Assembly (NCBI RefSeq): GCF_034355335.1 | Contig: NZ_CP136422.1 | Location: forward strand, 3,878,501 to 3,942,500 | DNA length: 64,000 bases | From: Blautia coccoides | GTDB taxonomy: Bacteria; Bacillota; Clostridia; Lachnospirales; Lachnospiraceae | Reading direction: 5' to 3' | Shown here: in pieces, positions 34,167-62,979 of the stretch | How positions within the stretch are numbered: the first letter of the stretch is position 1 | Layout: each line of letters starts with the position of its first letter | Notes under the pieces: generated by a model | The model's input: only the letters and a program-made list of their open reading frames with translations | What the model was told of the DNA's origin: nothing | The model's database searches: none | Translations under genes and position numbers: made by a program

Positions 34167-37100
34167 TCATTGTTTTCTGCTGCCTATGACCTTAATCAGC
34201 ATATTCAGCAGTTCCTTAAAGTCTATGGGCTTTGCCAGATGACCGTTCATGCCGCTCTCTATAGACTTTTTCATGTCCTCATCAAAAGCGTTGGCTGTCA
34301 TGGCAATAATGGGTATGGTCCTGGCATCTTCCCTTGGCAGCTTCCGGATCTCTTTTGTGGCCTCCAGGCCGTCCATGACGGGCATACGGATATCCATGAG
34401 GATCGCATCGTAATATCCCGGCTCCTTCTCAGAAAACGCCTTCACGCCCAAAAGCCCGTTGTCCGCCCGCTCCGAACGGATACCATGAAGGTTCAGGATC
34501 GAGCCGGCGATCTCTGCGTTCAGTTCGTTGTCCTCCACCACCAGAACCCTTCTGTCCCGGAGAATATCCATATCCTTTGGAGCTGCCTCTTCCTCTTCCT
34601 GCTTTGTACCATCGCTTAGAACAACCGCAAAGGAGAATTTGCTGCCTTTGCCGGGCTGGCTCTCCAGACTGATCTCACCGTCCATCATCTGCACCAGTTG
34701 ACTGCTGATGGCGAGACCCAGGCCGGTTCCGCCGAATCTGCGCGCTGTACTCTCGCCTGCCTGTTCAAAGGAATGAAAAATCCTCTTCTGATCCTCCGCA
34801 TCGATCCCGATTCCGGTATCCTCCACGGAAAAGGAAATCTCCGTCTTATCCGGTGCTGTCCGGCGCTGCTTCACCGCAAACAGGATATGTCCGTCTTTTC
34901 CCGTGAATTTCAGGGCATTTCCCAGAAGATTGATCAGCACCTGTTTCAGATGCATGGCATCTCCTACCACCCATTTCTGTTCAAAATGAGTCTCTGTGGT
35001 GTAGAGGATCCCCTTCTGGGCAGCCTGAGGAGCGATCAGATCATCAATATTCCTCACCCACTGCTCCAGATCAAAATCCAGCATTTCCAGTTTCATTTTA
35101 CCGCTTTCAATTTTGGACATATCCAGTATATCATTAATCAGCGAAAGAAGATAGTCCGAAGAGGTGCTGATTTTTTCCAGATATGTCTGTACCTTGCGGG
35201 GTACATTTTCATCCTGCATGGCTATTTCCGTCATCCCAATGATCGCATTCATAGGAGTACGGATCTCATGGGACATTCTGGAGAGGAATTCGCTTTTTGC
35301 CCTGCTGGCCTGGTCATAATGTACTTTATTCAGATTGTTCTCTATAATCTTGGCAGACTCCTGAATGTTGCTCTGCTCTTTTTTATCCCACAGAACCGCA
35401 CCTGCCTCTGCCATCAGTGTAATGGAACCTATGTATTTTCCGCCGTCAGTCATGGGAACACTGAAGCCCTGTTTTGTCTCCGGTATCATGAGAAATTTCC
35501 GCTGTTCTTTTGTCATGGTCTGCCCGTTGACTATGGAGACTTCCGTACCGTACTGCTCTGTCAGTGCCTTGAACTCCTCTGCAGTAAAACGCTTCATATC
35601 CTTTTCCTGATGATCTGCTGCGTTTTTATGCCACTGATGGGAAATATAGGCCGTATGGAAATCCCGGTCCACGGAGGTCATCAGAATATCCGTGGCCCCG
35701 TAGTAATGCCCCATCTTCACAAAGAGCACTGCCAAAATGGAATCCATATCTCCGCCTTTGTCAAAGAAATTCAGAGTAAGGGATACCATATTGAGCTGGG
35801 GACCGCTGGTTATGCTGGCTATATCGTTGATCTCTGTCAGCATATTCTCTTTGGTCTGGCTCGGGATTTCCCGATAGAAATACACCCTGCCGTCCTTTTT
35901 CTGCTTTGCAAAGGTCAGGGCACACCGCACCCTGCGCAGAAGCTGGACATATCCCAGATTGGAATTGTTTCTCATACAGGCACCTGCAGACACGTGAATG
36001 CTGAAATCGGCCTCCTGATAAAGCTGCGCGATTGCTCTTCGCACTTCATCTAAAAACACCTCTGTCTGCTCCCTGGTGAATTCTGAGAGCCAGATGAGGA
36101 TCTCATCACCACCCTGCCGCACCAGTATGATTTCCTTTTTCTCTGTCTGCTCCACCTGCTCCTTTTTTGCCAGAAGCAGGCTGCCGATCTCTTCCAGGAT
36201 CACATCCCCGAAGATAAGTCCGTAAGTTTCATTAAGGATCCGGAATTCATCCAAATCCAGAAGCACCATGCTTCCGCTTCCGCCTCTGGCCAGCACTTCC
36301 GTCAGATAACGGCGCCCCTCCCGCTGTGTACGCAGCTTTGTTATAGGGTCCCGCTTTGCCGATTCGATTTCTCTCAGCTCCTGCATCTTCTGCTCATGGA
36401 TATCACGTACGCTGCCGATGATCTTGCTCTTTCTGCCATTTTCATCCTGTATCACTTCACCTTTCAGCAGCCTCCAGCGGTACTCTTCAGTGGACTCCTT
36501 TTTTCCGCGGAACTCCGCATAGATCTCGTCTCCTCTGACAGCAAACGCTTTTTTAAGCTTATGGTAATCTTCACCAAATATATGTTCCTTAAGCAGTTCC
36601 ATATCCTCTGTTATCTTATATCTGACAGCCTGACCGCCACGATCCGGATAGTTGAACAGTTCGATTTCTTCTCTTCCCAGATCATAGGTAAAGAAAATAT
36701 CGTCGCTGCTCTGCAGCGCGATTCTGTAACGCTCCTTCTCCTCTGTCAGGCCTCTCTCTGCCTGTTCCTGACGGCTGGTCAGATTTCTCACAACGTCGTA
36801 AAGCTCATCCACCTCTGACACACCTGACGCCTTAAACTGTTCCAGGCTTTTTCCGGCGCTGCTTCGTATGCACTCTGCCAGACGCCGGATCGGGTCTGTC
36901 ACGTGATTAGCCACCAGATAGGTGCAGATAATTCCGAATACAAGGGCTACCAGGATAGCTGCCAGCACTTTCCACAGGATCTGCCGGCCGATTCCAAAAA
37001 TAGCTTCATTTTTCTGTATACCTACAAGGAACCATTCTTCCTCCTCAAAAGGTGTGTTGGTATTATAAAGATGCAGCTTTTTTGCTGATGCATAGAGTTC

Positions 37101-55770: not shown

Positions 55771-57288
55771 TTAAATATGCCTTCTTCTGCTTCTCCACAT
55801 GAAAACCATAGCTGCTGCTGAAAGCCCTGCCAACAGGATCAGTCCTTCCACCGGTGTATCATCTCCCGTTTTTGCAGTCTTAGCCGCAGTCTTTGCAGCC
55901 GGTTTTACCGGTGCTTTTTTCTTATCATCCGGTTTGTTCACAGACACTGCCGGGAACTGCTCGTTCTTACGCACCTGCTTTGTAGTGAGAACATATGTGG
56001 AGCAATGTTCAATCTGGATGGTCACATATCCGTTCACTACCTTGATATTCTTCTGTACAGGCTCGGCAGCTTTCTTATTTGCGTTGTAATAATACAGATA
56101 AAGGTTCTGTCCGTCTTTAAAGCTGCTGCCTGCATAGATTTCAACTTCCGCCAATCCCGGGAGCTCTCCCTCATAGTCGAATTCAAGATACAGGTTCTCT
56201 GAATCTTTCGCCATAAGGCTGCCGGCATCCTTATTCTCTTTCTTTTGTACAATTCCAAAATCCATGGCAGCATCTGCGTTTGTTATTTCTGTTCCGGTAA
56301 ACTTCCATGAATACTGAAGCACTCCGTTGTCTTCTGCCATGATGGTCAATGTTCTCTCTGTTCCTTTCAGGCTCTTGAACAATGCCTTTTGCTGTTCTTC
56401 TGTCAAACCATTACCATCTTTGCTTTTAAATATCAGACTGGTCACGCTGGAATCCGCCAGCCCCTTCTCTAAATCTTCATATGTAGTGGCTGTGCATACT
56501 CCGTTCGGATAGACAGGAACATCCGGGCTGCCTGGATTCCCCGGGTTATTTGGATCATCTGGGTTGTTCGGATCATCTGGATTGTTCGGATCATCTGGGT
56601 TGTCCGGATTATCTGGATTGTTCGGATCATCTGGGTTGTCCGGATTATCTGGATTGTCCGGATCATCCGGGTTATCCGGATTCCCCGGGTTGTCTGGATT
56701 GTCCGGATTATCCGGGTTATCCGGATTCCCTGGATTGTCCGGATTATCCGGATTCCCTGGATTGTCCGGATCCGGAACTTTTTCTCCTACTGCCCAGTCA
56801 TAAGATATGCCCTGCAGTACCCCTTCATCCACAGTATTCATTTGATGACTCTGGTCAACAAACACAACACTTTTTGGCACGATGGATGCCTGAAACATTT
56901 CACTTTTCGGAGTGCCTGATATGGTACCGACCGACACATCCCGGGCCTGATCAAAAACCGTATCCGATGATGAAAAATAGATATCCAGGACACCATTTTC
57001 ATAAATATATTCCCGGATCCTGCATTTGTTCTGTATCTCTTCTGAGAAAGTAAAGGTAATATCACCGATACTTCCGCTTTCAATCTCTGTTATCTTCATT
57101 TGGATCCGGTATGTTGTAGCATGGTTTTTTATCATATCCCCATTGGGGTAGAGGGCCAGTTCCACCTGGCCCGCATCCTTTTGCTGCATTTTGATCATCG
57201 TATCATCCTGTTTGGCAGCCTGTACAGGGACATAAGCCGCAAACAGCGCCAGAACTAAAACAATACATAAGCTCTTTATTCTCTTCAT
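55771..57288 (-). CDS. Surface protein with cohesin-like N-terminus, Asn-Pro-Asp repeat and sorting-signal-like C-terminus
   Basis: The 505-residue protein begins with a signal peptide (MKRIKSLCIVLVLALFAAYVPVQA). Residues about 30-165 form a beta-rich domain (VELALYPNGDMIKNHATTYRIQMKITE..., IGDITFTFS, YENGVLDIYFSS) that resembles cohesin or related bacterial beta-sandwiches. A linker of NPDNPG/NPDDPN units covers about 171-256, and a second domain runs to about 440. The end has AKTGDDTP, a hydrophobic stretch and RSRRRHI, similar to a sortase signal but without the usual LP. Its start overlaps the stop of the M60 protease gene by one base, so the two are one operon. Cohesin identity is inferred, not certain. 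Confidence 0.78.
   Translation of the reverse strand: MKRIKSLCIVLVLALFAAYVPVQAAKQDDTMIKMQQKDAGQVELALYPNGDMIKNHATTYRIQMKITEIESGSIGDITFTFSEEIQNKCRIREYIYENGVLDIYFSSSDTVFDQARDVSVGTISGTPKSEMFQASIVPKSVVFVDQSHQMNTVDEGVLQGISYDWAVGEKVPDPDNPGNPDNPDNPGNPDNPDNPDNPDNPGNPDNPDDPDNPDNPDNPDDPNNPDNPDNPDDPNNPDDPNNPDDPNNPGNPGSPDVPVYPNGVCTATTYEDLEKGLADSSVTSLIFKSKDGNGLTEEQQKALFKSLKGTERTLTIMAEDNGVLQYSWKFTGTEITNADAAMDFGIVQKKENKDAGSLMAKDSENLYLEFDYEGELPGLAEVEIYAGSSFKDGQNLYLYYYNANKKAAEPVQKNIKVVNGYVTIQIEHCSTYVLTTKQVRKNEQFPAVSVNKPDDKKKAPVKPAAKTAAKTAKTGDDTPVEGLILLAGLSAAAMVFMWRSRRRHI
56520..56775 (-). repeat. Nine-base tandem repeat encoding (Asn-Pro-Asp/Gly)n
   Basis: About 28 copies of a nine-base unit such as GGATTATCC or GGATTGTCC (plus strand) encode NPD, NPG, DPN and DPD units in the surface protein. 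The near-identical units should allow slipped-strand length change without a frameshift. The encoded linker is rigid and acidic and would hold the N-terminal domain away from the cell wall. Confidence 0.9.
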
Positions 57289-60200
57289 CAGTTCCCCTCC
57301 TCATGTTTATCCGTCAATTGAATCGGCGGCAGCGGATTCGGCACAGCCATGGGCATTGTATCACTTACAAGACGTTCACCTTCATTTGTATGCGCATCAT
57401 CCACTCGGTATAATTCCGCCCTGACACTGGTCACACCGGATGGGATCTGATCCGGTTCCATATAATAGATCCATGTACCGGATGAAACTTCTCCCAGTTC
57501 TCCCTCAGCCGGAACCTCCGCAAAGATCAACTGGGAACCATCCAGGATATTTCCATTCTGGTCATACAATTTTACCACATTATAGGAAGGATTTCCTTTA
57601 TATTCGCCTGTGAAGATCAGGGAACCGACAGGTATCTCACCTCCGTTTTCATCATAGCTGTAATTTTTATCCAGAATACCGATACCGTTTTCCAAAAACT
57701 CAACATTGTCTCCTGTGGGGCCTAAAATATCTATCTCAGACAGAGACACTGTACTCTGCCCTTTGATCTTCAGCTTCAGATAAGCAGCATCATAGGTGTA
57801 CAGCCAGGAATCACCTTCTTTGTTGAAATAGGAAACAGCCGTATTCTCCGAGTAAGACAGACTTCCTGATTTCACAAGCGTCCACTGGTTTCCGTCCTGA
57901 CTCACATAGGCATCAAAATTCTTAACTGCTGTTTTTTCATCAGTGGCTGTGATCTTGAACGCGGCCGCCTGAAGGGTTCTGCCAAAACTGATAATGATTT
58001 CCGGAGATTTTGCTTCTCCGGTATATACATCTGTATAATCATTGTTATATATGCTGCTGATTCCCGAAACAACGGTTCCCTCCGGATTTTCCTCACTGCC
58101 GTTTTCCTGTCTGTCACTGGAGGAGGTCATATTCGTTGTTATATTCCATCCATCCTTTGCCACACTTCCGTCATTGGAAATCTTCACGGTGTCCGCTGTA
58201 ACTTTCTCTGTCTGCTGCAACAGTTTGTCATATCCCACCACTTCATAAGTAAACACTCTGTTGTTCATAGATGCAATGGTATCTGTATATGTCACAGAGC
58301 CGTCCTTAGCCTCTGCAAATCCGATCACCTTGCCATTTCTGTATATTTCATATCCCAGCATGGAGTTCTGGTCAGCCGCGTCATTGGAAAGTGTGAGGGT
58401 CACCTGAGCAGAATTAGGAACATATGTAAGCGCTGCACTTACTGCAGTCTGTCCGGCTGTACTTTCTCCGCCTTCTATGCGGTATACCCTTGCCTCATCT
58501 GTAATATAGCTGATCCTTCTCGTCTCTGCTTCAAACTGTGACGCATATGCAATGGTATCCTCGTCCGGTGTCATTCCCCACTGTTCAAAGAATTCCAGTA
58601 AGTTCTTCCCGGCAGCCGCACATGACAGCCGCATCAGGGTATTGTCCACATCTTTTGGAATCGTCAGTGCGATTCCCTCCGGAGCAGGTGCAATGGCCGT
58701 ATTCCTTGCGTACGCGTCCACTCTTGCAAAAAACAGATTGTTAAACTGCTCCTCATAAGTTTCATAAGTCTTATAATTATATCCGTCATCATAGGCCAGA
58801 TGGAGCTGCCAGTACATGGCAAGACTTGTAAACACATTTTCCGCACGGCCTTTTGTACCAGAAGTGACCTTCTTATACACATCCTCATATTTATAGCGTA
58901 CAGAATCATTTGTCTCCTTTGCCTGTGCCAGAATGGAATAATAATTGTTGGTTATCTCGGCGATGGCATAGGACGGCTGATTGATGATATGGCCTATCTC
59001 ATGGGCAATTCCCCAGCCAAAAAGCTGTCCGCTCACATATTTTCCATTATCACTTTCAACCGGTACACCGCCTGCAAGGCCGCTCACGCTGCCCCATTCG
59101 ATACCCACATGAAGCCCGCCGGCATACATAAAGGCTCCGGAAAACATTCTCATGTAACGTATGTTCAGACGGCTGGACGGCAGATTATTTTTGCTGCCAT
59201 ACTGGGCAGTCAGTGCCTTGTCTCCATTATAATCACCCAGTCCTTTGTGCTGGTAAAACAGTGTCACCATCTGTTCCATAGCTTGACAGGACTCATATAG
59301 TACCTCTGTCTGATTATCCAGATTCTTTTCTTTCCCCTGGTTTTTCAGCTTATTGTTGATGCCGTTCAGGATCTGTTCTGCCGATACCGAATACATCATC
59401 TGATCCAGCACAATGTCCGTTGCTCCCAAAATGCAGTTCTGCTTGTCATAGCTGTAATCACAACTGCTTTCTTTATTGCCTTCATGCAGTTTTTTATGAA
59501 GTTCAGAAATCTGTGGAACATATGCATTGAGTTTCTCCACATATGCCCTGACAGCTTCCCTGGCTTCAGTCTCATCCGCTGCATTGGAGATATCAAGCTT
59601 GGGTATCTCCTGTCCTCCGCTGACACGAACACTCATGTTCAGTGTATCATTATTTCCTGTAAACTCCACATAGAGACTGCCGCCGTGTTCTGTGCTCAGA
59701 CTGCTGATCTGGGGAATGGTTACCTCATTTTTGCCATTCTTCAGATTCTGCACCACAACCCTGCTCCAGCTTCCTGATTCCGCGTGATACTGTGTTGCGA
59801 TCAGGTTCAGGTTGGTATTGGCTCCCAATTCCGCGTCATCTCTGCCTACATATACAACCAGTTCTTCCCCTGCATGGGCACTAATGCCAAGAGGCTGCCA
59901 TGCATTCAGACCTCCCGAGAAGCCCAGAGCGCCGTCTTTTTTCTTGGTCACTGTTGTATCAACCTTCATGATCCTGCCGGCATTCTTGTCATTGAGAAGA
60001 TCTTTTGCATAGGCCAGATCAGAAAGCAGCAGCTCTCTTTTCGGATGGAAATCCCCGGTAACTTCATCCGGAGTGTTAGCTCTGTTCTCCAGCGCCTCTA
60101 TCGTCTCTGCAGTTACATCTTCCTGCAGTTCCACATGCATAGCATCCGCAAACAGTGCATCAACATCCTTTTCCAGGCTGTCATAATAGTAAAATTTCAT

Positions 60201-62717
60201 CTCCGCTATAGAGATTCTCCCATTCACAGGAACCCATGCCATGGCAAAGTTTATCTGTATCCGTTTTGCCTTAAAAGGCTGGGAATAATTAAATTCGTAA
60301 TATGCCTTACCGTTTACACTCTTCTTCTGCGTAAATTGACCATCTATTGTAGATATTTTTCCCTCTTCATCCCAGTATCTTGTTTTTGCATAGCCATATG
60401 CATACTGTTGTTTTTCATCAGGGACTACCACCAGCCTGTCCATCTCATAGCTCTGGTCAAAGGTAATGATAGGTGATGGCTTGCCCGAATTATAGCCGCC
60501 TGCATCCCAGGACGGCAGACTCCAGGAAGTGGTGTAATCATTATCTGCCACCGCTTCATTTATCTCCGGTCCTGATGACGGATATTCAATGGATGTAATG
60601 TGGGCGGTCAGTCCTCCCCCTTTCTGAGGCGTGTTGATCAGCTTATAATTGGATGTGACTGCAGGATCAATATCTGTTGTCTCTCCCGCATAAAGCTTTG
60701 ACTTTCCACTGGTTCCCATTTCATTTGTTCCTGTAAGGCAGATTTCATAGGTTGTGCTGTCTTTTAAGTCTGTGAGCTGATATTTATTCTGCTGGATGTC
60801 TTCTCTCTTTTCAAACTCTTCGGTTCCCTGTTCTCTGTAATAGAGTGTATAGGAATCCGTGTCTTCCATCTTCTTCCAGGTAATATCCAGTTTTCTGTAT
60901 CCCCCGGAAATGCTCACATTCTCCGGCGCATCAGGCGCTTTTGACGGCTTCGGGATCACAGACACCGTTTCCGAATAAGCACTGCTCCAGTCTCCGTTCA
61001 CGGACCTGACCTGTACTGTGTACTCCTCATTATTTTTTATTTTCTCAGTCCCAAAGCTTGTTACGAGGATACTGTTCTCTGCTGTTGGATAGACTTTGCT
61101 TTTTCCGTCTTTTTTCACCATGACTTCATATCCCGCTACATTTGTCTGGGCGTTCCAGGTCACGGTAAATTTCTTATCTCCCGGCTCTGCTTTTACCTGG
61201 TCAGGAATATTCATGACCGGTGCAGGGATCCTGTCCTCCATTCCATTGAGGAATTCCACCTTGGAGATATCCGCCAGCTTGCTTCCTCCCGTATCTGTCA
61301 CCTTGATGGTTACCTTTTTAATGGCTACCTGTTTTCCCAAGTTGATGATTATGGTTCCGTCCGGCTCAATGACTGCCTGCGCCGCAGTGAGGGCGAACAT
61401 GGATACGCTGCTTATGGGAACTTCTATGGTCTGGCTCTGTCCCACTTCATCCACATAATCCACGGTCACTGACCCTGCCTGAATGATATTACCGGAGTCC
61501 CTCGGAGGCGACAAAACCAATGCCCCTGCCTGGATATCGGTACGTTTTTCCAGATCAAGCTGCAGTTCCACCGGATTTTCCGGCGAGATTTCCCCGTCAT
61601 TCGCAGGTTTCAGGGAAACACTGCCGCCGTCTTCCAGGATACTCTCAACACTTCCCTCTGCAACCTGGGTTGTCTCGCCCACATTTGCTGATATCTCTTC
61701 CAGAATATAACTTCTTGTCACATAGGATTCCATTTTCTCGAATCCATAGCTGTAAGAAAGCCACTGCAGATCCACAAGATCCACCTTTTGATCCTGATCC
61801 AGATCAAACACGCTGTCTGTGCTCTCCAGATGAATGGCCCGGATCAGCTCTGTTTTGTCATTCTCATCAATAACACCGTCACGATTTACATCCCCATATC
61901 CGATAACACCGGGATGTCTCTCCATGTCAGAAAAATCCATGCCGGTGTAGACATCCATAAACTGCATCTTCTGATCCATTGCCTGGATCTCCACATCCTG
62001 GTCATATACGGCAAAATGGCTTCCGCTTATACGAAGATGATATTGTCCCGGTTCCAGATCCACAAAAGAGGCCTCTGCTTTTTTTGACACACTCTCCCCT
62101 TCCAACATGGAAAAAGAGGCTTCCAACTGCTGCCCTTCTCTTGTGAGGACTGCCTGCAACCCACTGTTCAGCGTCTCCGGGGCGCTGTAGGGAAGGCTGT
62201 AGATCAGACTCAGATGGAGCCGGCCTTTCTGTACTATGCTCCCATCCGCCGGCAGTGTTCCGTCTTCCTTCTGTGCTTCTGGACTTTTTAGTGACTCTTG
62301 GCTATTGCTCTGTCCCGCCTTCGCACCGGTCTGTTCTCCCGGTGTTTCTTCCTGCTTGGCCTCTCCTGCTTGTTCTCCTGTTGTACCTTCCTGCGTAGAG
62401 GCTTCTGGCTGTCCACCCGAAGCCTCTTCCCGCTTAGGCACCTCCTGCTGTTCTCCTGCAGGCTCTTCCCGCTTGGGCACCTCCTGCTGTTCTCCTGTAG
62501 CCTCTTCCTGCTTGGACACCTCCTGCTGTTCTCCTGTTATCCCTTCCTGTTTGGAAGATTCCTGCTGACCGCTGTCTGCCTCTTTGCTCTGAACCTGTCC
62601 GCCGGCTTTATAAGATTCTGTATTTTGCTCCTGTACAGCGGCAAATGCGGTAGTTCCCGGTGTCTGCAAGATCATACCGGATATGAGCAGCCAAGCGCAT
62701 AACTTTTTCATTTTCAA
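57288..62717 (-). CDS. M60-family (mucinase-type) metalloprotease with dockerin, FN3 and F5/8C domains
   Basis: The 1,809-residue secreted protein has a signal peptide (residues 1-27), a 13-residue Glu/Gln-rich repeat (about 58-129), a beta domain, a dockerin with two calcium repeats (GDVNRDGVIDENDKTELIRAI and FDLDQDQKVDLVDLQWLSY, about 272-326), a further beta-sandwich, FN3-like domains (about 500-680), a discoidin-like region (about 690-860), and the M60 catalytic domain with HEIGH at 1239-1243 and Glu1254. A second F5/8C-like domain lies at about 1545-1670. M60 peptidases cut O-glycosylated proteins such as mucins. No wall-anchoring signal is present. The start is TTG 62717, eight bases after AAGGAG, or ATG 62711. 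Confidence 0.92.
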   Translation of the reverse strand: MKMKKLCAWLLISGMILQTPGTTAFAAVQEQNTESYKAGGQVQSKEADSGQQESSKQEGITGEQQEVSKQEEATGEQQEVPKREEPAGEQQEVPKREEASGGQPEASTQEGTTGEQAGEAKQEETPGEQTGAKAGQSNSQESLKSPEAQKEDGTLPADGSIVQKGRLHLSLIYSLPYSAPETLNSGLQAVLTREGQQLEASFSMLEGESVSKKAEASFVDLEPGQYHLRISGSHFAVYDQDVEIQAMDQKMQFMDVYTGMDFSDMERHPGVIGYGDVNRDGVIDENDKTELIRAIHLESTDSVFDLDQDQKVDLVDLQWLSYSYGFEKMESYVTRSYILEEISANVGETTQVAEGSVESILEDGGSVSLKPANDGEISPENPVELQLDLEKRTDIQAGALVLSPPRDSGNIIQAGSVTVDYVDEVGQSQTIEVPISSVSMFALTAAQAVIEPDGTIIINLGKQVAIKKVTIKVTDTGGSKLADISKVEFLNGMEDRIPAPVMNIPDQVKAEPGDKKFTVTWNAQTNVAGYEVMVKKDGKSKVYPTAENSILVTSFGTEKIKNNEEYTVQVRSVNGDWSSAYSETVSVIPKPSKAPDAPENVSISGGYRKLDITWKKMEDTDSYTLYYREQGTEEFEKREDIQQNKYQLTDLKDSTTYEICLTGTNEMGTSGKSKLYAGETTDIDPAVTSNYKLINTPQKGGGLTAHITSIEYPSSGPEINEAVADNDYTTSWSLPSWDAGGYNSGKPSPIITFDQSYEMDRLVVVPDEKQQYAYGYAKTRYWDEEGKISTIDGQFTQKKSVNGKAYYEFNYSQPFKAKRIQINFAMAWVPVNGRISIAEMKFYYYDSLEKDVDALFADAMHVELQEDVTAETIEALENRANTPDEVTGDFHPKRELLLSDLAYAKDLLNDKNAGRIMKVDTTVTKKKDGALGFSGGLNAWQPLGISAHAGEELVVYVGRDDAELGANTNLNLIATQYHAESGSWSRVVVQNLKNGKNEVTIPQISSLSTEHGGSLYVEFTGNNDTLNMSVRVSGGQEIPKLDISNAADETEAREAVRAYVEKLNAYVPQISELHKKLHEGNKESSCDYSYDKQNCILGATDIVLDQMMYSVSAEQILNGINNKLKNQGKEKNLDNQTEVLYESCQAMEQMVTLFYQHKGLGDYNGDKALTAQYGSKNNLPSSRLNIRYMRMFSGAFMYAGGLHVGIEWGSVSGLAGGVPVESDNGKYVSGQLFGWGIAHEIGHIINQPSYAIAEITNNYYSILAQAKETNDSVRYKYEDVYKKVTSGTKGRAENVFTSLAMYWQLHLAYDDGYNYKTYETYEEQFNNLFFARVDAYARNTAIAPAPEGIALTIPKDVDNTLMRLSCAAAGKNLLEFFEQWGMTPDEDTIAYASQFEAETRRISYITDEARVYRIEGGESTAGQTAVSAALTYVPNSAQVTLTLSNDAADQNSMLGYEIYRNGKVIGFAEAKDGSVTYTDTIASMNNRVFTYEVVGYDKLLQQTEKVTADTVKISNDGSVAKDGWNITTNMTSSSDRQENGSEENPEGTVVSGISSIYNNDYTDVYTGEAKSPEIIISFGRTLQAAAFKITATDEKTAVKNFDAYVSQDGNQWTLVKSGSLSYSENTAVSYFNKEGDSWLYTYDAAYLKLKIKGQSTVSLSEIDILGPTGDNVEFLENGIGILDKNYSYDENGGEIPVGSLIFTGEYKGNPSYNVVKLYDQNGNILDGSQLIFAEVPAEGELGEVSSGTWIYYMEPDQIPSGVTSVRAELYRVDDAHTNEGERLVSDTMPMAVPNPLPPIQLTDKHEEGN
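61740..61904 (-). other. Dockerin segment within the M60 protease
   Basis: Residues about 272-326 show two F-hand type calcium loops, DVNRDGVIDEND and DLDQDQKVDLVD, each followed by a helix, the defining layout of a type I dockerin. In cellulosomes this module binds a cohesin on a scaffold. Dockerins are also found alone in gut bacteria, where partners are often unknown. Confidence 0.82.
62331..62546 (-). repeat. 39-bp tandem repeat encoding a Glu/Gln-rich stalk
   Basis: About five and a half copies of a 13-residue unit (consensus EEATGEQQEVPKR) follow the signal peptide of the M60 protease. Copies differ at several positions, so the array is not recent. The encoded segment is probably an extended, charged stalk. 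Confidence 0.85.
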
Positions 62718-62745
62718 TTTCTATTCTCCTTCCCCTTACAGGGCC

Positions 62746-62777
62746 AAAAAAAACGGTATCCAGGGATACCGTTTTTT
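62746..62777 (-). terminator. Expression-platform terminator of the c-di-GMP riboswitch
   Basis: AAAAAACGGTATC and GATACCGTTTTTT form a perfect 13-base stem with a four-base loop and a T-run on the minus strand. It lies between the aptamer and the protease gene, 29 bases before the start. An alternative pairing of the upstream GGTATACC palindrome (about 62797-62811) with its GGTATC could act as antiterminator. Confidence 0.88.
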
Positions 62778-62799
62778 CACAAAGACAACAGACAGACAG

Positions 62800-62895
62800 G
62801 GTATACCTGTCCATCACTGTCTGCAGCCCGGCTATCCCTCCCTTGGGACCCGTGGCTTTGCGTCACTGCCTTACGACAGTTTTGCCCCTTTATTT
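62800..62895 (-). ncRNA. Cyclic di-GMP-I (GEMM) riboswitch
   Basis: Read on the minus strand the leader contains GGGGCAAA, a hairpin CTGTCGTAAGGCAG, the diagnostic GACGCAAAGCC, a second hairpin (CGGGTCCC...GGGATAGCCG) and GCCGGGCTGC, all in the order and spacing of the GEMM-I aptamer. This RNA binds c-di-GMP. The aptamer is followed by a terminator and then by the M60 protease gene, so c-di-GMP should set its transcription. Whether ligand turns it on or off cannot be decided by eye. Confidence 0.93.
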
Positions 62896-62950
62896 TTTTA
62901 TAATGTCTGTCATTAGACACTGTCTCATTCATCAGACATATTCTAATATA

Positions 62951-62979
62951 AGAATACCTATTTTGACTATTTTAGTCAA
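62951..62979 (-). promoter_or_regulatory. Promoter of the riboswitch-controlled protease operon
   Basis: On the minus strand TTGACT (62979-62974) and TATTCT (62956-62951) are exactly 17 bases apart, just beyond the MobB-THEP1 gene stop. Transcription from about 62944 would give a leader of roughly 230 bases with the complete aptamer and terminator. Confidence 0.65.

Follow-up and report, generated by a model that had tools for sequence, protein, structure and literature searches.

A class I aptamer for cyclic dimeric guanosine monophosphate (c-di-GMP) lies in the leader of a giant M60 metallopeptidase gene in Blautia coccoides, on a 64,000 nt stretch of contig NZ_CP136422.1 (positions 3,878,501 to 3,942,500, hereafter the window), and the M60 gene overlaps a second, partner gene (Table 1). 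On balance, the evidence somewhat favours reading the leader as an attenuation-based OFF switch over an operon of protease and cohesin anchor. The riboswitch would control the two translationally overlapping genes by transcription attenuation; the first product would be a secreted M60 glycopeptidase bearing a dockerin, and the second would be anchored to the wall and carry a single cohesin domain. The cohesin would bind the dockerin, so that the operon would yield a protease tethered at the cell surface. When c-di-GMP is low, the 3′ strand of helix P3 in the aptamer would pair with the 5′ arm of the terminator, allowing read-through by RNA polymerase; at high c-di-GMP the bound aptamer would retain that strand, the terminator would form and neither protease nor anchor would be made. 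The switched unit in Blautia and its kin may be a minimal cohesin–dockerin device, one protease with its own wall anchor on one transcript. The first-pass annotation of this DNA, which proposed a c-di-GMP riboswitch over a mucinase-type protease operon, is supported in its main lines; the predicted cohesin fold and dockerin within the operon, and the aptamer–M60 pairing in other genera and families, go beyond it.

Table 1. Features of the riboswitch-led M60 operon (window coordinates)
Feature	Position	Strand	Basis or remark
Sigma-70-type promoter TTGACT-17-TATTCT	62979-62951	(-)	Read in sequence, listed by consensus scan
Class I c-di-GMP aptamer	62895-62818	(-)	RF03167 64.3 bits, RF01051 67.4 bits
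Ligand-contact equivalents G20, A47, C92	62886, 62859, 62823	(-)	Hand-counted from RF03167 alignment
Candidate antiterminator strand (3′ strand of aptamer P3)	62840-62828	(-)	Duplex with 62772-62761
Hairpin between aptamer and terminator	62822-62783	(-)	Minimum free energy folds of three congeners; terminator-like in consensus scan
Intrinsic terminator hairpin and T tract	62777-62746	(-)	13 pairs, -14.3 kcal/mol
Candidate antiterminator partner (terminator 5′ arm and loop)	62772-62761	(-)	Duplex calculation
M60 metallopeptidase gene, 1809 codons	62717-57288	(-)	Starts TTG; ATG 6 nt further in
Dockerin type I domain, residues 274-320	61758-61898	(-)	PF00404 24.7 bits vs 22.9
M60 catalytic part, residues 1234-1381	58575-59018	(-)	PF13402 44.6 bits vs cut-off 25.8
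Partner gene, 505 aa	57288-55771	(-)	ATG overlaps M60 stop codon (TGATG)
Predicted cohesin domain, ~residues 30-170 of partner	56779-57201	(-)	Predicted fold
Wall-anchor-like C-terminal tail KTGDDTP...RSRRRHI	55774-55872	(-)	Read by eye

The M60-leader aptamer is the sole Rfam match above gathering score in the window. A full GEMM-I aptamer had been claimed from three quoted motifs, all of which can be read in the sequence, and the covariance check with RF01051 returned a significant match (cut-off 35, E 1.1e-12 for the genome). The equivalents of the ligand-contact residues G20, A47 and C92 are all present, which makes the binding site canonical. A GNRA tetraloop on P2 (GUAA) is likewise read in the alignment. 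Judged as an RNA, the leader belongs to the ordinary class I c-di-GMP riboswitches and would bind the ligand, and very probably it is a functional c-di-GMP switch. The closing helix P1 is poor, as two of the three model pairs are non-standard and the folds show no local P1. Separately, the long hairpin between aptamer and terminator starts directly 3′ of C92, at the point of aptamer closure by P1, and may take the place of that helix.

The leader also matches RF03167 (c-di-GMP-I-GGC; cut-off 59, E 7e-13), and clan competition in Rfam picks that family for the window, both M60-bearing congeners and Faecalicatena orotica, as would be expected of a GGC variant with another or a relaxed ligand. 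The name ‘GGC’ is read here as the three contact positions. The RF03167 consensus carries G after GACGC, whereas the window aptamer carries A there, taken as A47; despite its score the aptamer was therefore not filed in that family. Across the 14 M60 leaders above Rfam gathering score (in 13 genomes, window included), RF03167 is the best model in 4 and RF01051, which also scores 67.4 bits on the window aptamer, in 10, and a GGC variant appears very improbable. A47 is described as conserved in class I riboswitches, stacked between both ligand guanines (PMC9049102).

Within the genus, the M60 gene is found in 3 of 20 genomes (the host, G000, and the congeners G252 and G256), and in all three it is preceded by promoter, aptamer and terminator and begins with a signal peptide, so that the leader is retained wherever the gene is kept, contrary to the loss in all close relatives that the first-pass annotation had named as refuting. 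Beyond the genus, samples of 250 genomes of the family and 391 of the class were searched. An M60 match is present in 24 of the 250 family genomes; with the host set aside, 7 of the remaining 23 carry a class I aptamer somewhere, in one case (G162) before the M60 gene. The class sample gave M60 matches in 33 genomes (38 match rows), and the RF01051 search covered the 32 genomes other than the window's (37 rows). A same-strand aptamer lies within 4.5 kb upstream of 7 of the 37 rows, in 6 of the 32 genomes, where 0.035 would be expected from aptamer number and genome sizes; seven rows fall below the M60 cut-off, none of them aptamer-positive. In the seven class loci the first possible M60 start is 70-196 nt 3′ of the aptamer, and the positives carry family codes f43, f56, f60 and f66, plus f1. 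A third set, of named loci, comprises the best 80 of 483 M60 loci, 73 of them intact at the 5′ end and with 400 nt or more of upstream sequence, and partly overlaps the unnamed sets (identical rows). Here a first covariance model of 8 base pairs (R1), a detector only that could overlook divergent aptamers in this set, found an aptamer before M60 in three: Faecalicatena orotica (L061), a metagenome-assembled genome of Eubacteriales (L078) and Ruminococcus sp. UBA3286 (L116), the last outside the 73 with 258 nt upstream only. The aptamer–M60 pairing is thus found again in further genera and families, far more often than chance would give.

This recurrence, together with retention of the leader in three species, argues against an aptamer that folds and may bind while expression is unresponsive, whether silent, decaying or subject to a second terminator that overrides it, as is reported of Bc1. 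Such an element has precedents, as Bc1 binds c-di-GMP while its genes do not respond (PMC11218506) and in C. difficile 630 no downstream gene is detectable for 5 of the 12 class I elements (PMC6200980), and the poor P1 of the window aptamer would suit it. We consider it improbable, if less so than a GGC variant.

Most aptamer-led M60 proteins resemble that of the window in combining fn3 and M60 domains, usually with a dockerin, though none was detected in L116. The proteins of G430, G545 and G562 differ, carrying NPCBM, Ig-like and F5/8 domains, with FIVAR in G430 and G545 and dockerin not listed. The M60 tree (108 rows, 12 with aptamer) was built without L040 (= L141), L150, L151b and six loci missing the upstream end; L123, L166 and nine loci without alignment also lie outside it. 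Aptamer presence requires 6 changes on this tree, at least 5 of them forced by well supported branches, and the bearers form a single clade in 0 of 200 bootstrap trees. Gain and loss of the aptamer cannot be separated by the tree. One apparent pair was rejected: in G015 the M60 gene is on one contig and the aptamer near the end of another (C67; L144 709-795), before a different gene of 1692 codons, whose protein has a prepilin-like GFTLVE start. Each member of a tandem pair of NPCBM-type M60 genes at L151 (G430:C33) has its own, nearly identical c-di-GMP-I leader, a duplication carrying the riboswitch along.

The identification of the first gene as an M60 protease is sustained by the PF13402 match, which spans profile positions 126-275 of 275. 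The HEIGH (HEXXH) motif at residues 1239-1243 and a candidate third ligand, E1254, are invariant in 18 homologues. The protein comprises a signal peptide, a dockerin with two calcium loops read by eye as DxN/DxDxx(V/I)xxxD, two fn3 domains and the M60 part. Its catalytic region matches the solved structures 6xsz (ZmpC; E 1.2e-20) and 5kdj (E 1.1e-20), both over residues ~1215-1504, as well as 6xsx (ZmpA) and 9pks (the O-glycopeptidase BcM60F; E 8e-10), and it aligns with ZmpA, ZmpC and related M60 structures with HEXXH intact. Given this resemblance to solved glycopeptidases, a role as a host-glycoprotein protease is a reasonable proposal, and mucin or another O-glycoprotein is the natural guess for the substrate. 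The window protein differs from the ZmpA/ZmpC type in its dockerin, its two fn3 domains and the separate cohesin gene.

The second gene, held to be cotranscribed in the first-pass annotation, does start within the M60 stop codon. Its product is laid out as a signal peptide, a cohesin-fold domain, an Asp/Asn-Pro linker, a second domain and a tail of KTGDxxP, hydrophobic and basic segments. Two homologues of the partner are named by their sources as an LPXTG-motif cell wall-anchored protein and a Gram-positive cocci surface protein, and source names among the homologues include Blautia marasmi, B. hominis and B. pseudococcoides. No Pfam anchor domain matched the window partner, and the L154 partner gave a weak match (E 0.069). 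The predicted fold of the N-terminal domain is that of a cohesin, with a cohesin-like module of C. perfringens as the best match; in this it recalls the single cohesins (X82) of that species. The sequence-only searches of the partner (Pfam and PDB profiles) gave no cohesin, and alignment A3 gave linker matches only. The domain, recognized by fold rather than by profile, is accordingly termed cohesin-like by fold and not a Pfam member, and is predicted to be a cohesin. The partner probably holds the protease on the cell surface, and tethering by this particular cohesin–dockerin pair appears likely.

The pair of genes is not confined to riboswitch-led loci. Among the 76 of the 80 named M60 loci with enough downstream sequence, 73 show an open reading frame (ORF) of 120 residues or more that closely follows the M60 gene on the same strand. 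A profile of the partner N domain matches 63 of the 73 at E < 1e-3, a count that includes L061, L078 and L116, which had themselves gone into the profile. The M60–partner pair is therefore conserved with or without the riboswitch. Behind the NPCBM-type M60 genes no such partner was seen. In G563 a protein with cell-wall-binding repeats lies behind the M60 gene, and in G256 (L143 9851-10554) group II intron domains (RF01998, RF01999) follow shortly behind the M60–cohesin operon.

The remaining parts of the leader set out in the first-pass annotation, a promoter and a perfect terminator, are both in place. Over 331 nt the promoter scan picked out 3 promoter-like sites, where shuffled sequences averaged 0.7, and the M60-leader promoter aligns and is conserved in two congeners. 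In the terminator stem both sides vary in two congeners while pairing is kept. The consensus scan listed the preceding hairpin and not the terminator hairpin itself. A terminator-like hairpin sharing no base with the aptamer lies before the gene in 13 of the 14 M60 leaders, though that of G563 is weak (-4.8 kcal/mol). The L116 leader (225-290) contains the aptamer but lacks a terminator ahead of the gene, so that control there would be translational.

The separation of terminator and aptamer is informative as to the direction of switching. In the OFF switch Cd1 of C. difficile (flgB) the aptamer can form together with the terminator, and both compete with an antiterminator, while in the ON switch of pilM aptamer and terminator are mutually exclusive (PMC9262584). 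The window, with a separate terminator able to coexist with the aptamer, fits Cd1 rather than pilM. In C. difficile, those class I switches that are functional are reported as OFF, repression of zmpI included (PMC6366702, PMC6200980), which by analogy supports the same direction here. An antiterminator, demonstrated for Cd1, is weakly supported in the window. The P3 3′ strand and the terminator 5′ arm form a duplex of -15.8 kcal/mol (p 0.011 and 0.021 for two shuffle kinds), complementarity combined over nine leaders gives p 0.0046 and 0.0008, and a control in which leaders exchange partners yields p 0.0017 for the aptamer 3′ part with the terminator 5′ arm; these values are exploratory, as the narrow test was defined after a weaker, wider one. 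The possible antiterminator of the first-pass annotation is thus supported only in part: the window duplex speaks for it, the wider test is weaker and the congeners give no support.

Several observations count against the proposed OFF switch and its tethered product. The antiterminator duplex is no better than shuffles in G252 and G256 (p 0.16-0.41) or in F. orotica (p 0.95 and 0.84). In the wider first test, of the whole 3′ aptamer half against the terminator arm, 35 and 45 of 500 shuffles were at least as good as the window, 120-408 of 500 as five other leaders (185-324 for the congeners); no leader stood out, and this definition was dropped. The minimum free energy fold keeps an intact aptamer even with the terminator 3′ arm withheld, so that no antiterminator wins at equilibrium. 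RNA-seq showed a rise with c-di-GMP at one C. difficile locus of class I (PMC6200980), and Bc2 of B. thuringiensis is an ON switch (PMC6366702). For the tether, the Pfam cohesin profile (PF00963) was unmatched in 13 aligned partners and in 8 partners, and a profile search of PDB sequences with the partner gave no cohesin up to E 10. Finally, most M60 genes examined are without an aptamer, which makes the arrangement recurrent and not general. A further pairing, of AGGG before P2 with the terminator CCCU, appears in folds of the three congeners without the terminator 3′ arm; it has 4 pairs only, the terminator is ~8-10 kcal/mol better, and it was rejected as sole antiterminator.

Some of these points would be accommodated by an ON switch, in which the ligand favours read-through or translation and protease and anchor are made, adhesin-like, in the sessile, high-c-di-GMP state. 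Class I switches of both signs exist, with Vibrio showing both directions (PMC6366702), no aptamer-involving antiterminator is favoured at equilibrium, and a pair of surface proteins is what the operon encodes. Against this stand the absence of any base shared by terminator and aptamer in the 13 leaders, unlike pilM, the complementarity of aptamer 3′ part and terminator 5′ arm above control across the leader set, and the OFF direction of the functional C. difficile switches (PMC6366702). ON switching is thus rather unlikely, while the OFF direction, given a functional switch, is fairly probable; the mixed antiterminator evidence from p-values, wide test and folds keeps it at that level.

The parallel drawn in the first-pass annotation with C. 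difficile is sound, since there a class I switch (Cdi-1-12) likewise precedes, and represses, a secreted zinc metalloprotease, ZmpI (PPEP-1), in a gut member of the Clostridia (PMC6366702, PMC6200980). ZmpI releases sortase-anchored adhesins of its own cell, whereas the window encodes an M60 enzyme 1809 residues long, whose operon includes an anchor gene of its own and whose predicted substrate is a glycoprotein. The Limousia mucinolysome is similar to the window in having dockerin-bearing mucin-acting enzymes on cohesin proteins, one of them sortase-anchored, and its description makes no mention, in the excerpts available, of riboswitch, c-di-GMP or M60 (PMC12997984); the window differs in pairing one protease with one single-cohesin anchor inside a single operon. 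For the Clostridium and Bacillus sequences that it showed, a survey of M60-like proteins from 2012 noted no evidence of a feature that would anchor them at the cell surface (PMC3267712). In a limited search of open-access papers, with subscription journals mostly outside, riboswitch and c-di-GMP were not joined with peptidase M60, M60 or mucinase; a tandem-riboswitch review touches on Blautia, c-di-GMP and riboswitch together. The riboswitch target, its recurrence and the likely cohesin–dockerin tether are new here. If the proposed control is correct, c-di-GMP, best known for motility, biofilm and adhesion, would also time the cutting of host glycoproteins by gut commensals. The window offers a testable leader in a culturable Blautia, and the cohesin–dockerin pair a possible anchoring mechanism for large clostridial M60 proteases.

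The host is very likely to synthesize c-di-GMP, as a profile search of its genome (a single contig of 6,097,890 bases) gave 40 GGDEF match rows. One GGDEF domain lies in the window itself, ~26 kb from the riboswitch, in a frame of 1312 codons (35892-36359 (-), G000:C1:3914392-3914859; 59.7 bits). The host has two class I aptamers, that of the M60 leader and one at G000:C1:111976-112065 on the plus strand (L002 1501-1590; RF01051 77.3 bits); downstream of the latter are two ORFs, one of 205 codons that contains a transmembrane-like stretch and one whose product looks secreted. A search of the host genome for c-di-GMP-II gave no match, in a search without a working positive control, so that absence is not established. 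G252 and G256 each have a second class I aptamer, as in the host. Elsewhere, three consecutive class I aptamers occur at G283:C29:21489-21944 and G371:C40:4912-5366, in two genomes sharing one genus code. Within the genus of the host, a c-di-GMP-I-like aptamer (L146 1286-1366, G258:C65) precedes a lipoprotein that by eye resembles an extracellular solute-binding protein.

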